From the NCBI RefSeq assembly GCF_024584705.1, contig NZ_CP097384.1, positions 4,650,001-4,714,000 of the forward strand: 64,000 bases of DNA. The letters are read 5' to 3'. The stretch is from Blastopirellula sp. J2-11 (GTDB lineage Bacteria; Planctomycetota; Planctomycetia; Pirellulales; Pirellulaceae). Made by a program: the position numbers and the translations under genes. Positions 44,940-51,676 of the stretch are shown here, piece after piece (the stretch's first letter is position 1; each line of letters starts with the position of its first letter). A model generated the notes under the pieces. That model worked only from the letters and a program-made list of their open reading frames with translations, was not told the origin of the DNA and did not search any database.

Positions 44940-45162
44940 CCGTTACGTGCTGTCTTGGGGTGCGAGGAAAACGAGAAGTGCTAGCATAACGAGTGTTCTT
45001 CTCGTAAATATTTTGTAAAGTCCTGTCCAAAAGTGGCGCGACGAGTATATTAACTCAAGTTCGAAGAGCGAGTCGCCGCAGTCGCCGCTTTTCAAACGAC
45101 CCACTGGCGGTTCCAGGGAAGAACCGCAACCATTCTCCACTCTATTGCCTGGGAGGGAACCC

Positions 45163-45444
45163 ATGACGCGAATTCCTCTGAATGCTGCTGCTCAAGAATC
45201 GGAAAGCTTGATGTCCAAGCTCGAAATGAGCACCGCGGAAATCGGCCTCACGGTTCGCACAACCAATTGTCTCGAAGAACGTGGAATTTTCACGGTTCGA
45301 GACCTCCTCAACTGCACGCGTGCAGACCTCCTCAGCATTTCAAACTTCGGTGAGAAAACGCTGGATGAAGTCTACTCGTCGCTGGAAAGCATTGGCTTTT
45401 TCCGGAAGGCCCGTCAAGCGGTCGCACAGCCGCTGGCTGTGTAG
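45163..45444 (+). CDS. Free-standing RNA polymerase alpha C-terminal domain protein
   Basis: A 93-residue protein from ATG 45163, with GGAGGG six bases upstream. Residues ~28-85 match the alpha-CTD nearly end to end: LTVRTTNCLEERGIFTVRDLL, RADLLSISNFGEKTLDEVYSSLESIGF. In RNA polymerase this double helix-hairpin-helix domain binds UP elements and activators. Here the N-terminal assembly domain is absent, so the protein cannot join RNA polymerase as alpha; it could compete for UP elements or activators, or bind DNA on its own. It is followed by a terminator at 45496, so it is a single-gene unit. Confidence 0.92.
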   Translation: MTRIPLNAAAQESESLMSKLEMSTAEIGLTVRTTNCLEERGIFTVRDLLNCTRADLLSISNFGEKTLDEVYSSLESIGFFRKARQAVAQPLAV

Positions 45445-46910: not shown

Positions 46911-48221
46911 ATGGCCCGTTGGCCCCGACTTTGGGAGAAAAAACGAGGAAAACGTCGCACAGGCTCGCCGATCTTCGGAAGCGTGGGAGAGGCGATGTTT
47001 TTTGCGGCGCTGCTGTTTCTGGGGTCCATCGGCCTGGTAGCAGTCGTTGCGTCGATTGCGTTCGAATCGGTCGTCGCGACCTATCTGTTTCCCGAAGCGA
47101 CCTACACGGCCGGAAAATGCGTCGTGATGGAGACCGATCTCGGCGAGAAAACGCTCGACGGCGGCGATACGCGCTATCAGCCCATGATTCTGGTCCACGT
47201 CCACTCTGGCGCCCGAGATTTTGTGGGCTGGACCTACCGCCGTAATCCCACCTGGTACACTGACCGTGACTCGGCGCAAAAAATAGTGGACGGCTTTCGC
47301 CCCGGTTGGGTCTATCCCTGTTGGTACGCGTCGTATGATCCGTCGACGGTCATCTTGCGGCGATCGACGAACTTTACCCTGTGGATCATCTTGCTGGTCT
47401 TCGCCTCGTTCGCGACGATCGGCACGATCGGCATGTTCTACACGTTGTTGCTGTTCGGCGCTTCGGCCGAACGACGATCCGCGCTGGCGAAAAGCGCCCA
47501 AAAGATCGAATTGATCGGCGATCTTTTGCCCCCGTCCGCCTATCCCAATATTCCGAGCGCCGAAAACTTGACCAACAGCCCCGGCGTTCGCTTGGCCTAT
47601 CGCCTGCCGATTGAGGTCTCGCCGGCGTGGTGGTTGTTTGCGACGCTGTTGTTCAGCCTGGTCTGGTCCGGCATGACGGCGGTGTTCGCGTTGGGAGCGA
47701 TCGCCGATCTAGAACGGGGCGAGCCCAACTGGCTGCTGATGGCGCTGACCCTGGCCGCAGTCGCGGTCGGCATCTGGTCAGGCTATCATTTTTTACGACA
47801 GATCTCGCTCCATACGCGCGTCGGCCCCACCTACATCGAGATTTCCAATCATCCGCTGCTGCCGGGACGCGACTACAAACTGCATCTGTCGCAAGCAGGC
47901 CGCATGCATGTGAAAAAGCTGCGCGTCACGCTCATCTGCGAGGAAGAGGCGACATTTCTGCATGGAACCGACGTCCGCACCGAAATCGCGAAAGTCTATG
48001 ACGCCGAAGTCGCCAACTTCCGCGGCCTGGTGATTCGTCCGGGAACGCCGTTTGAGGAACTGTTGCACTTTCAAATTCCGCTCTCGGCGATGCACTCGTT
48101 CAAGTCGAGCCATAACGCGGTGCACTGGAAATTGATTGTGGATCTCGAGGCCAAAGGCGCCGGCAGTCAACGGCGCAGCTTTCCGATCGTCGTCTATCCG
48201 GCGGTACCATCGAACGCATGA
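46911..48221 (+). CDS. Membrane protein with DUF3592-like and arrestin-like regions
   Basis: A 436-residue protein, first of a tight operon. Four transmembrane helices are visible: ~28-52, ~155-180, ~232-258 and ~267-290. The segment between the first two (TYTAGKCVVMETDLGE, YQPMILVHVHSG, FRPGWVYPCWYASYDP) resembles DUF3592, an extracytoplasmic beta domain. The C-terminal ~135 residues (LPGRDYKLHLSQAGRMHVKK, EEEATFLHGTD, FQIPLSAMHSFKSSHNAVHW) look like an arrestin-type beta sandwich. Both assignments are from pattern, not search. The stop overlaps the next ATG. Confidence 0.8.
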   Translation: MARWPRLWEKKRGKRRTGSPIFGSVGEAMFFAALLFLGSIGLVAVVASIAFESVVATYLFPEATYTAGKCVVMETDLGEKTLDGGDTRYQPMILVHVHSGARDFVGWTYRRNPTWYTDRDSAQKIVDGFRPGWVYPCWYASYDPSTVILRRSTNFTLWIILLVFASFATIGTIGMFYTLLLFGASAERRSALAKSAQKIELIGDLLPPSAYPNIPSAENLTNSPGVRLAYRLPIEVSPAWWLFATLLFSLVWSGMTAVFALGAIADLERGEPNWLLMALTLAAVAVGIWSGYHFLRQISLHTRVGPTYIEISNHPLLPGRDYKLHLSQAGRMHVKKLRVTLICEEEATFLHGTDVRTEIAKVYDAEVANFRGLVIRPGTPFEELLHFQIPLSAMHSFKSSHNAVHWKLIVDLEAKGAGSQRRSFPIVVYPAVPSNA

Positions 48222-48649
48222 CCGACGAACCGCACATCTCGATCTCGCTCGATCGGCCGACGCGCCAATACGCGGCCGACGACGAACTGCTTGCGCGGTT
48301 TGAAATCAGCAACCTCCCGGCCGTCAACATTCAAGCGATCGAAGCGTCGGTCTTATGGCATACCGAAGGAACCGGCGAAGAAGATATGTCAGCGCACGAA
48401 TTTGTGCGACTTCTTCCCGGCGACGAAATGGACGGCGACCTGACCCGTTCGCAATCGTTGAAAACTCGCCTGCCGCGCAGTCCTTTGTCGTACGCCGGCA
48501 AAATCGTCAAAATCCATTGGGTCGTTCGGGTCCGCGTCTTTGTCGGCCGAGGACGCGACCTGGTCGAAGAGTTAGAGTTTGAACTAACCCCGGCAGGCGG
48601 CGGCACGACGCTGGGCGCCGGCGAAGCGATGGGGGGCGCTCGTGGTTAG
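48218..48649 (+). CDS. Small arrestin-like protein (operon middle gene)
   Basis: A 143-residue cytoplasmic protein whose ATG overlaps the previous stop (ATGA). It appears all-beta: ISISLDRPTRQYAADDELLARF, IEASVLWHTEGTGEEDMSAHEF, then IHWVVRVRVFVGRGRDLVEEL. The spacing of strands and the WHTEG-type turn resemble one half of an arrestin/SpoOM-like sandwich, similar to the C-terminus of the preceding protein. This is a structural guess. The stop overlaps the next start, so the three genes are translationally coupled. Confidence 0.7.
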   Translation: MTDEPHISISLDRPTRQYAADDELLARFEISNLPAVNIQAIEASVLWHTEGTGEEDMSAHEFVRLLPGDEMDGDLTRSQSLKTRLPRSPLSYAGKIVKIHWVVRVRVFVGRGRDLVEELEFELTPAGGGTTLGAGEAMGGARG

Positions 48650-49253
48650 TACGAACCCATTCGCCAGTCGGCAGGTTCGCCCCGGAGCGATTCCGTTTCA
48701 ATTTTCCGCCCCCGATTCGCCCAACCTGATTATCGAGCGTCTGCGTGAGTCGCACTGGCGCGGAACGATCGTCGGCCCTCATGGTTCGGGCAAGTCGACG
48801 CTGCTAGAGACCCTTTCTCCACTCTGGCTTGAGCAAGGTCTTACCGAAGTTCGCGTGACGCTCCATGCTGGCGCTCCCAACTCCGGCGAACTCCGTCTGC
48901 CGCGGAAAGAGGAGATTTTGGTGGTCGACGGACTTGAGCAGCTCTCGTGGCTGGCTCGGCGATGGTTGTTGTGGCGATGCGCCGCCGCCAACAGCCGGTT
49001 GTTGGCGACCTGCCACGCGTCGCTCGGTTTGCCGGTCGTCTTCACCACCGAACCCTCGCCCGCACTAGCGGAACAACTTGCCGAGATCTTACAGCGGAAA
49101 ACGGACAAGTTGGTCACCGCCGCCGACGCGCGAATGATGTGCGAAAGCAACCAGGCCGATCTACGAGAGACGTTGTTTCAGTTGTATCACTTGTATGAGT
49201 CACGCCGAAAATCGCGACCAGCGGATGATCCGGAAGCGAAAATTACCCGCTGA
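48642..49253 (+). CDS. P-loop ATPase of the three-gene operon
   Basis: A 203-residue protein starting at GTG 48642, inside the end of the arrestin-like gene. Walker A is GPHGSGKST (~44-52) and Walker B is EEILVVDGLEQL (~89-100); a possible sensor segment is LLATCHASLGLP (~120-131). It is short for an AAA protein and lacks a signal for membrane insertion. It probably hydrolyses ATP to act with the membrane and arrestin-like partners encoded upstream. I do not recognise a named family. No gene follows for 250 bp. Confidence 0.82.
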   Translation: MVSTNPFASRQVRPGAIPFQFSAPDSPNLIIERLRESHWRGTIVGPHGSGKSTLLETLSPLWLEQGLTEVRVTLHAGAPNSGELRLPRKEEILVVDGLEQLSWLARRWLLWRCAAANSRLLATCHASLGLPVVFTTEPSPALAEQLAEILQRKTDKLVTAADARMMCESNQADLRETLFQLYHLYESRRKSRPADDPEAKITR

Positions 49254-49503
49254 TTTTCCGCGATCGCTAAAGTTTCTGTAGGCGCCAGAAGGTCGCCAGA
49301 CGGCGACGATTCTCTCTGCCGCGCGACCGCACTGACAACCGGCAGATTCTTCTGAATTTCGGCTGTAATTGCTGTTCTCGCTTAGGTTTCTGATCTACCT
49401 TTCCTTGGATCATCTTTTCGGATGATCGGAGCGGCAGGGAACTGCCCCAAGCAAACGCGACGGATCCGCGATCAGATTTGAGTGAGAGAGAAAAGGCATT
49501 CCC

Positions 49504-50814
49504 ATGTCGCGTTGTCCCCTACTGGCCCTGATTTTGCTAACGACATTCAGCAGCGCCGCCCAGGCCGACTGCTGGCTTACGGATTGGCTATGTGGCAAAA
49601 AGGAAACGCCGCAGCCGGTCGTCGCTGGCTACCTGCCGGCAGGACCTCCGCAGCCATACCAGGTGAACTACGTTCAGCCGGCGGCGCCGATCTCCTGTGC
49701 GCCGGTCTATCAAAACCAGACCTCGGTTCGCTACATTCCCGAGACGCAATACCAAACGACCTACAAGCCGGTTCCGGTGACCGTTTACCAACCGACCACC
49801 GTCTACCTGCCAGGCAGCAACGTGCCGACCTTGGCCTACAACGGCTGCACGACCTATCGCTGGGAAACCGAACGAGTTCCGTACACGACTTACAAACCGG
49901 TAATTCAAAACGTCCAAACGCAGGTCAACAGCTGTGCGACGGTCGGCTACATGCAAGCGGCTCCGGCTATGCAGGGGGCTCCGGCTGTCATGGGATCGTG
50001 CAATAACTGCAACGGCGCCACGGGCCCCTCACCGTACGCCGCGCAAGGGCAGCCGATGCAGTCGTATCCCGCTGGGCAAGGACAATGGGTTCCGGCCCAA
50101 GGGGGCGGAGCCAGCTCGATGGTCAATCCTCCTTCGACCTATCCGCAAGGTGCGGCTCAGCCGATGCCCAGCTCGCAATACAACGTCGCTCCTTATCAAC
50201 AAGGGGGTTCGCCCCAGCAAGGGCAACCCTACCCAGGATCTTCGCCAGCCGACCAACCGCCGGCGCTCAATCCGAACGAAGTGACCCCGCCTAACTACAA
50301 CAACCGCAGCACGCTGCGTGTCACGCCGGAAGCGAATTCGGTCCTTCGCCCGACGCCGGGCGCGACGATCATCAAGCCTTCGCCGCAACCGACCACGACG
50401 CCGTCGATCGGATCTGGAGCAGCTCCAATGACGACGCCGGGTACGACCTCGCCCAGCACGCCGCCTCCCAGCAACACGCAATCCTTGGCAGCGCCGTTTA
50501 CGCCGTACGCTCCGTCATCGTCGCAGACGACTCAAACTCCTTCTACGGTTCCGAGCGGCATCGCGCGACCGCAACTCAATCCATTGATCAAACCGATTCC
50601 GGATCCTGACTACTACCCAACCCGCACAACGCCGCAAGATCAGGCCCCGGCGCTGCTGAACCCGCACGACAAATCGGCCTTATTGCCGACGGCCAAAATC
50701 GTGCCGATCGCCTGGGACGAAGTCGCCACGCCGACGACGCGCGAAGTGAGCTACGAGACGCCGACCGTTTCGATCCCCGCCAAAAAGAACAGCTGGCATC
50801 AAATCGGCCGCTAG
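49504..50814 (+). CDS. Pro/Gln/Thr-rich secreted protein
   Basis: A 436-residue protein with a signal peptide (CPLLALILLTTFSSAAQA), preceded by a purine-rich GAGAGAGAAAAGG. After ADCWLTDWLCG the sequence is Tyr/Pro/Gln/Thr-rich: repeated QTTYKPV and TTYKPV motifs (~80-145) with a few Cys, then low-complexity SNT/PQ tracts (~180-400). It is probably disordered and extracellular or cell-wall associated; similar low-complexity secreted proteins are common in planctomycetes. A C-terminal TREVSYETPTVSIPAKKNSW motif could be an anchoring or sorting element. Function is unknown. A terminator follows at 50841. Confidence 0.8.
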   Translation: MSRCPLLALILLTTFSSAAQADCWLTDWLCGKKETPQPVVAGYLPAGPPQPYQVNYVQPAAPISCAPVYQNQTSVRYIPETQYQTTYKPVPVTVYQPTTVYLPGSNVPTLAYNGCTTYRWETERVPYTTYKPVIQNVQTQVNSCATVGYMQAAPAMQGAPAVMGSCNNCNGATGPSPYAAQGQPMQSYPAGQGQWVPAQGGGASSMVNPPSTYPQGAAQPMPSSQYNVAPYQQGGSPQQGQPYPGSSPADQPPALNPNEVTPPNYNNRSTLRVTPEANSVLRPTPGATIIKPSPQPTTTPSIGSGAAPMTTPGTTSPSTPPPSNTQSLAAPFTPYAPSSSQTTQTPSTVPSGIARPQLNPLIKPIPDPDYYPTRTTPQDQAPALLNPHDKSALLPTAKIVPIAWDEVATPTTREVSYETPTVSIPAKKNSWHQIGR

Positions 50815-51202: not shown

Positions 51203-51330
51203 CTCGGATATCTACTCGCAAAATGCGCGGCGAAGCGGTAGAGCAAGAGACGCGTTCGCAAGAGTAAAAGTTGCCCGTGAAAATTGGATCACGATCACTT
51301 GCCGAGACCATTCACGATCAGGATTGTTTC

Positions 51331-51600
51331 AGTCCAGTCCAAGGTTCCAGTCCGGTCCAAGGTTCCAGTCCAGTCCAAGGTTCCAGTCCAGTCCAAGGTT
51401 CCAGTCCAGTCCAAGGTTCCAGTCCAGTCCAAGGTTCCAGTCCAGTCCAAGGTTCCAGTCCAGTCCAAGGTTCCAGTCCAGTCCAAGGTTCCAGTCCAGT
51501 CCAAGGTTCCAGTCCAGTCCAAGGTTCCAGTCCAGTCCAAGGTTTCAGTCCGGTCCAAGGTTTCAGTCCGGTCCAAGGTTTCAGTCCAGTCCAAGGTTCC
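51331..51600. repeat. 18-bp tandem repeat array, 15 units
   Basis: Fifteen contiguous copies of AGTCCRGTCCAAGGTTYC fill 270 bp, with a partial unit at the right edge. Units 2, 13 and 14 have G at the R position; units 12-14 have T at the Y position; the rest are identical. The unit itself contains a 5-bp echo (AGTCC/GGTCC). Because 18 is a multiple of three, several frames stay open on both strands. There are no spacers, so it is not CRISPR. Confidence 0.95.
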
Positions 51601-51676
51601 GGTCCGGGGTGTTGATCATCGCCCATTCCGTCAGCTAGGCTGATTTGCTTCGCTGTCATGCTGCAGGAACAAAGAG

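Follow-up and report, generated by a model that had tools for sequence, protein, structure and literature searches.

Arrestins are sorting and signalling adaptors best known from animals. The ExeA/GspA–ExeB pair joins a cytoplasmic AAA+ (ATPase associated with diverse cellular activities) protein to an inner-membrane partner. Spo0M (PF07070) of Bacillus subtilis is presented in the excerpted text of Alvarez 2008 (PMC2515105) as the archaeal and bacterial family of the arrestin clan, and its role is, in the part of a second source drawn on here (PMC5325327), still being worked out. Here we describe a three-gene unit, g1-g2-g3, in a 64,000-nucleotide stretch of the Blastopirellula sp. J2-11 genome, a single contig of 6.43 Mb; this stretch (positions 4,650,001–4,714,000) is called the window. 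A sequence-only reading of the window had picked out three overlapping genes, and all three open reading frames lie where it placed them, with the stop of g1 and the start of g2 sharing an ATGA overlap and g2 and g3 overlapping by 8 bases. Because a profile of one-chain arrestins from relatives matches both g2 and the tail of g1, we read the window as encoding an arrestin that is split in two and tethered to the membrane, together with a linked AAA+ ATPase.

One-chain relatives

Some relatives carry a different arrangement, type B, in which a single gene encodes an N-terminal Arrestin_N domain, a transmembrane (TM) hairpin and a second arrestin-type domain. Eleven type-B proteins were aligned, and four were cut into halves for a Pfam scan. 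All four N-domains scored above the Arrestin_N cut-off (44–53 bits vs 24.9). One of the four C-domains passed the Arrestin_C cut-off (28.2 vs 27.7); two others matched Arrestin_C below it, and the last matched Arrestin_N and Spo0M weakly. A type-B profile, which contained no window sequence, gave exactly two matches in the whole genome of the window at an expect value (E) <= 0.01. The end of g1 was matched by profile positions 178–352 (E=1.2e-16), in an alignment that extends a little beyond the stop, and g2 by positions 4–126 (E=3.2e-12).

Because the two matches fall in these places, g2 is the counterpart of the first domain, and the tail of g1 that of the second, of what is a one-chain membrane arrestin in relatives. 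This correspondence between two separately encoded domains and the halves of one chain is a point absent from the sequence-only reading. The type-B loci themselves were first recognised through profiles of g1 and g2 that had been trained on sequences of the window family, so the bridge is not fully independent.

Type B is also linked to the ATPase. At 17 of 27 loci the type-B gene is preceded, on its own strand, by a g3-family AAA+ gene, which mostly overlaps or adjoins it; six of these 17 AAA+ genes went into building the g3 model used. The AAA+ gene of L212 is about 0.6 kb from type B, and that of L175 is truncated where the contig ends. No AAA+ gene was seen in the available sequence of the remaining ten loci, some of which are at contig ends.

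Two further observations concern type B. In one genome, types A and B lie within about 7 kb of each other (L090, 6736–8871 and 13338–15922). A similar, unassigned C-terminal domain of about 100 amino acids (aa) is present in several type-B proteins (L203, L205, L175, L178 and L090), and it had no Pfam match at E <= 0.1 in the three that were scanned whole (L203, L205 and L175).

Folds of the three proteins

The sequence-only reading had described g1 as a four-helix membrane protein with an arrestin-like tail, g2 as a small arrestin-like protein and g3 as a short ATPase, and each description holds. That the folds are arrestin-like was one of the two points on which that reading had been staked beforehand, and here profile, structure and type-B evidence agree.

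Hydropathy peaks predict four helices in g1 (Table 1), of which the TM3–TM4 hairpin is the membrane part that type B and the minimal g1 forms also retain. A template-free model of g1, built from five sequences, was compared with the PDB by Foldseek; 49 of the 50 chains listed were arrestin-clan or arrestin-containing, with TXNIP, Spo0M (5cl2, rank 2) and ARRDC3 at the top. After VIA re-alignment, 48 of the 50 listed rows were arrestin-clan, and the best match of the tail was Vps26B (Z 13.1, 135 aligned, root-mean-square deviation 3.2, model range 221–432). The remaining two rows were the unrelated RbmA (Z 10.7 and 10.6). The g1 profile found no arrestin among PDB sequences, where its matches were at chance level only. 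On the strength of the model, the g1 tail is very probably an arrestin beta-sandwich.

Upstream of the tail, g1 resembles DUF3592 (PF12158). The window protein falls below the cut-off of this family (E=5.7e-4, 20.9 vs 25.3 bits), and a match at E <= 0.1 was found in 43 of 43 g1 relatives (best 6.4e-14), all of which had been picked for full length; PF07070 matched three of the same 43 at that threshold (best 2.4e-6). The DUF3592 part can be dispensed with, because 19 g1 relatives skip it, with matches on both flanks and none within, and because the hairpin and arrestin part alone are matched in the short g1 forms (~220–245 aa) of L112, L114 and L142.

For g2, the evidence comes from profiles. 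The family profile, built from 64 relatives, matched 22 PDB sequences at E <= 10 (best E=0.0037), and all 22 have the arrestin fold, being arrestins, ARRDC3, TXNIP or Vps26. Arrestin_N was matched by 8 of the 64 members, with a best value of 8.9e-10. These matches point to an arrestin beta-sandwich in g2 as well.

The model of g3 (predicted local distance difference test, pLDDT, 83.8) gave Hda, RFC subunits, MgsA and RuvB as its best Foldseek matches, with E from 1.4e-5 to 6.7e-4 and query TM-scores (template-modelling scores) of 0.36–0.63. Residues were counted in alignment columns over 66 relatives. Besides the motifs in Table 1, an N-terminal box, N5-P6-F7, is present in 64/66 and presumably resembles that of ExeA. 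Downstream of sensor 1, no invariant Arg-finger candidate was found among the columns inspected; position 135 is Arg in 19/66. By its fold, its intact Walker A and its sensor-2-like Arg, g3 belongs to the AAA+ ATPases.

Conservation and linkage

The unit was sought in a class sample of 248 genomes and a phylum sample of 294. Among the class genomes, single-sequence searches gave 69 with g3 and 86 with g1, and profile searches gave 83 with g2 and 74 with g3 (E <= 1e-15). All 74 of the g3-bearing genomes also have g2 (Fisher p 1.3e-53, with shared ancestry not corrected for). Nine genomes have g2 and no g3 at this threshold, and in five of them (G102, G164, G084, G176 and G236) a diverged g3 lies near the arrestin genes.

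Same-strand trios number 57 in the class loci, counting the window and L004 and with three duplicates dropped. A 4-base overlap is possible at g1/g2 in 41 of these trios and at g2/g3 in 25, and the downstream start lies no more than 20 bases from the preceding stop in 53 and 48 trios, respectively. This overlapping arrangement is more than chance. At L142, g3 is on the opposite strand.

Of the 294 genomes of the phylum sample, 33 gave a g2 match and 103 a g1 match at E <= 1e-4, many of the g1 matches covering the DUF3592 part only. The order g1-g2-g3 recurs in 14 of 15 near-full-length g1 matches outside the class; the weakest of the 15, L186, has neither g2 nor g3. In two of the 14 trios g1 is broken, by an in-frame stop in L190 and by a frame change in L201. 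Natural fusions of g1 with g2, joined in the order opposite to that of type B, occur in L136, L195 and L206. A contig search with g3 only, whose reach is limited to close relatives, returned four planctomycete loci, and a g3 of Blastopirellula marina DSM 3645 is 92% identical to that of the window.

The sequence comparisons therefore bear out the expectation that the three genes would be conserved together, with the exceptions given above and in the Discussion. Conservation of the unit runs deep, and its genes stay together in most loci seen. The mirror-tree partial correlation (r) between g1 and g2 is 0.58 with PcrA as the control, 0.53 with PolX and 0.78 with the PQQ-type protein.

Gene layout and neighbours

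The features of the unit are collected in Table 1. A promoter scan gave one promoter-like match, no more than in shuffles. A terminator scan gave seven terminator-like matches vs 3.2 expected, one of them 3' of g3 at 49292–49307 with a poor T tract.

Table 1. Genes of the unit and their predicted domains and motifs, in window coordinates.
Feature	Position	Strand	Description
g1	46911–48221	+	436-aa membrane protein, ATG start; DUF3592-like domain and C-terminal arrestin-type domain (putative C-lobe)
g1 TM1	46992–47048	+	Residues 28–46, predicted from hydropathy (peak ~28–46)
g1 DUF3592-like domain	47154–47366	+	Residues 82–152; predicted outside the cytoplasm by the positive-inside rule
g1 TM2	47373–47429	+	Residues 155–173, predicted from hydropathy
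g1 TM3–TM4 hairpin	47646–47786	+	Residues 246–292, predicted from hydropathy (helices 246–264 and 274–292)
g1 arrestin-type C-lobe domain	47823–48206	+	Residues 305–432; structure matches and type-B profile; lobe putative
g2	48218–48649	+	143-aa soluble arrestin-type domain (putative N-lobe), ATG start
g3	48642–49253	+	203-aa AAA+ ATPase (predicted activity), GTG start
g3 Walker A	48774–48800	+	GPHGSGKST; G48, G50 and K51 in 66/66
g3 Walker B region	48915–48944	+	ILVVDGLEQL; D96 followed by Gly instead of the usual Glu
g3 sensor-1-like H125	49014–49016	+	66/66; putative role, from position
g3 sensor-2-like R175	49164–49166	+	66/66, GNLRE in consensus; putative role, from position

The neighbours that recur across 59 loci are a UvrD/PcrA-like protein (27 loci), a propeller of the PQQ type (24), a Pro-rich protein (21) and PolX (12), and the neighbours in the window are housekeeping-type genes. 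Among the loci outside the class and those of type B, no neighbour cluster occurs in more than 5 of 31. Neighbouring genes were considered as a clue to function and dropped.

Directly after the unit (49504–50814) is a gene for a 436-aa protein rich in Pro and Gln with no Pfam match at E <= 0.001; its relatives are the Pro-rich proteins found downstream of the unit in 21 of the 59 loci. A stand-alone 99-aa protein at 45145–45444 carries a C-terminal domain of the RNA polymerase alpha type (PF03118, E=1.4e-18). A tandem repeat with an 18-base unit, 15.6 copies and 96% matches lies at 51326–51605, upstream of PolX.

Discussion

The reading of the window as a divided arrestin, tethered to the membrane and linked to an ATPase, has to be set against several observations that weigh the other way. 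Those on the arrestin domains concern family and lobe identity. In the window, the g1 tail is under every Pfam cut-off, and so is g2, whose best matches are Arrestin_C (E=0.024) and Vps26 (E=0.035). Across the g2 family, Arrestin_C is matched by 13 of 64 members (best 4.2e-5), more than match Arrestin_N. The g1 tail also aligns to arrestin N-lobes in VIA, and the g1 model is of low confidence (mean pLDDT 63.1). Some type-B proteins, and one type-B N-domain, exceed the Spo0M cut-off. Compared directly, the g2 and g1 profiles gave an hhalign probability of 13%, too weak by itself, and the type-B comparison was needed. Since window g2 fits Arrestin_C best and the g1 tail aligns to N-lobes, Pfam alone separates the lobes poorly, and the names N-lobe and C-lobe are to be taken as provisional labels that rest on the type-B correspondence.

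Other observations concern g3. The mirror-tree partial r of g3 is 0.26–0.39 with the PcrA control, 0.44–0.51 with the PQQ control, and 0.06 and -0.30 with the PolX control (13 loci). This signal is weak to moderate and vanishes with the PolX control, and therefore the tie of g3 to the arrestin genes rests mainly on linkage and co-occurrence. In nine class genomes (G158, G146, G166, G230, G002, G025, G055, G138 and G037) g1 and g2 are together and g3 is detached, and G206 has one g1 next to a divergent g3, with a g2 on a separate contig. Four genomes (G006, G092, G112 and G119) have g2 with no adjacent g3 in the regions examined; in G112 (L202) a 425-aa open reading frame about 5 kb off gave a weak match to the g3 profile (E=8e-7). 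Finally, the residue after D96 is Gly in 55/66 and Glu in 2/66, so that Walker B departs from the usual hhhhDE pattern in most; E99, three residues on, is present in 58/66, giving DGxEQ in most. A Walker B without the usual Glu means that ATP hydrolysis needs proof.

The setting of the detached g3 genes was tried as a clue and proved uninformative: the ten neighbours scanned differ between lineages. They resemble a metallo-beta-lactamase, a nucleoside phosphorylase, a citrate-type transporter, a histidine-kinase-like protein, a cytidylyltransferase or a pseudouridine synthase, or have no match. The histidine-kinase-like protein (L119, 6456–7100) is short and adjoins a detached g3.

How might the unit work? 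We propose that g1, g2 and g3 form one membrane-bound machine, in which a split bacterial arrestin and a dedicated AAA+ ATPase act as an ATP-cycled adaptor for clients at the cytoplasmic membrane, a proposal that we hold to be nearly as probable as not. The predicted helices of g1 would tether its arrestin domain to the membrane. Because the g1 N-terminus is basic, the positive-inside rule puts the g1 tail on the cytoplasmic side, and g2 and g3 with it. There, g2 could bind to the g1 tail and rebuild a two-lobed arrestin, which would grip client membrane or signalling proteins by their cytoplasmic segments. g3 might then spend ATP to open, strip or reset the arrestin pair, which would thus take up and let go of clients in cycles, and the DUF3592 domain, where present, could provide input from outside. 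A bolder version of this proposal, which we put forward more tentatively, is a planctomycete arrestin powered by ATP, an adaptor tethered to the membrane whose two lobes come from different genes and which is reset by an AAA+ ATPase of its own. Such a protein would be a sorting or client-exchange device without counterpart among known bacterial systems, built on the same fold as eukaryotic receptor and endosomal sorting. The trafficking or sorting logic that the sequence-only reading saw in the unit is an analogy, and we use it as such.

The same parts could instead make a signalling switch, with DUF3592 sensing the outside, the arrestin pair changing shape and the AAA+ protein passing the signal on as a nucleotide-dependent switch. 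The DUF3592 match in every g1 picked as full-length fits this idea, as do the DGxEQ form of Walker B and the NACHT (38/66) and nSTAND_NTPase5 (26/66) matches among g3 members at E <= 0.01. However, many g1 forms do without DUF3592, the window proteins g1–g3 have no additional effector domain in the Pfam scan, and no signalling gene recurs among the clustered neighbours, not every neighbour being annotated. We regard a switch as unlikely, though it is the alternative we take most seriously. Less probable still is an envelope-assembly complex like ExeA/ExeB (GspA/GspB), in which a cytoplasmic AAA+ protein and its membrane partner help to build a structure across the envelope. g3 is indeed a small AAA+ protein with similarity to AAA_22 (40/66 members) and an NPF box that presumably recalls ExeA, and the membrane protein encoded with it has a domain predicted to lie outside, but the Pfam scan of g3 at E <= 1 found no peptidoglycan-binding or other extra domain, and no secretion gene recurs among the clustered, incompletely annotated neighbours.

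If g1, g2 and g3 were merely three ordinary genes kept together for expression, with products that form no common complex, the detached g3 genes and the weak mirror-tree signal of g3 would be readily explained, whereas the g1-g2 fusions, the re-linkage of arrestin and AAA+ genes in the opposite order at type-B loci and the complete co-occurrence of g3 with g2 in the class sample would not; we judge this quite improbable. An anti-phage or other conflict system, suggested by weak matches of g3 to the PADLOC models MADS, AriA and PtuA, seems to us the most improbable of all, since those matches span the P-loop region alone and none of the models matched g1 or g2. The housekeeping-type neighbours of the window, whose relatives recur at other loci, also speak against it, as does a plasmid search with one type-B protein that gave no match, neighbours elsewhere not all being annotated.

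The phylum Planctomycetes is one with complex internal membranes. A conserved arrestin anchored in the membrane and linked to an ATPase, if true, would mean that arrestin-type adaptors work in bacterial membranes, and a role of the arrestin fold before receptors and endosomes would become testable. In the excerpted text of PMC2515105, the prokaryotic arrestin clan so far is Spo0M. As a compact three-gene unit with a one-chain variant, the present system is approachable by biochemistry.

Comparison with known systems

The suggestion that this is an undescribed system survives family, structure and literature searches: no description of such a unit, and no named system of this composition, was found in the open-access literature. 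The nearest likenesses are partial. g1 resembles Spo0M in the second-ranked structure match of its model, but Spo0M is, to our knowledge, a soluble single chain with no linked AAA+ gene, and PF07070 has no match in the window's own genome, with positive results in three control genomes. With retromer and retriever the unit shares the likeness of the g1 tail to Vps26 and a membrane-associated sorting logic; we know of no AAA+ subunit in retromer, and Vps35 (PF03635) had no match in the genome, though no control genome matched either.

On the ATPase side, g3 has the fold, Walker A and sensor-2-like Arg of the clamp-loader, Hda and RuvB-type AAA+ proteins. It differs from them in its length of only about 200 aa, in its DGxEQ Walker B in most members, in its N-terminal NPF box and in being accompanied by g2 in every g3-bearing class genome sampled. 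Compared with ExeA/GspA, it has no match to a C-terminal peptidoglycan-binding domain, and its partner is a putative arrestin.

A further comparison is with the alpha- and beta-arrestins of the arrestin clan (PF00339/PF02752), which have the same beta-sandwich fold and two arrestin-type domains; PF00339 has no match in the window's own genome, where controls were positive. Here, each of the two domains has its own gene or, in type B, a TM hairpin separates them on one chain; one of the domains is anchored in the membrane, and there is a linked AAA+ gene. Each fold is thus already known, and it is as a system that the unit is categorically new.

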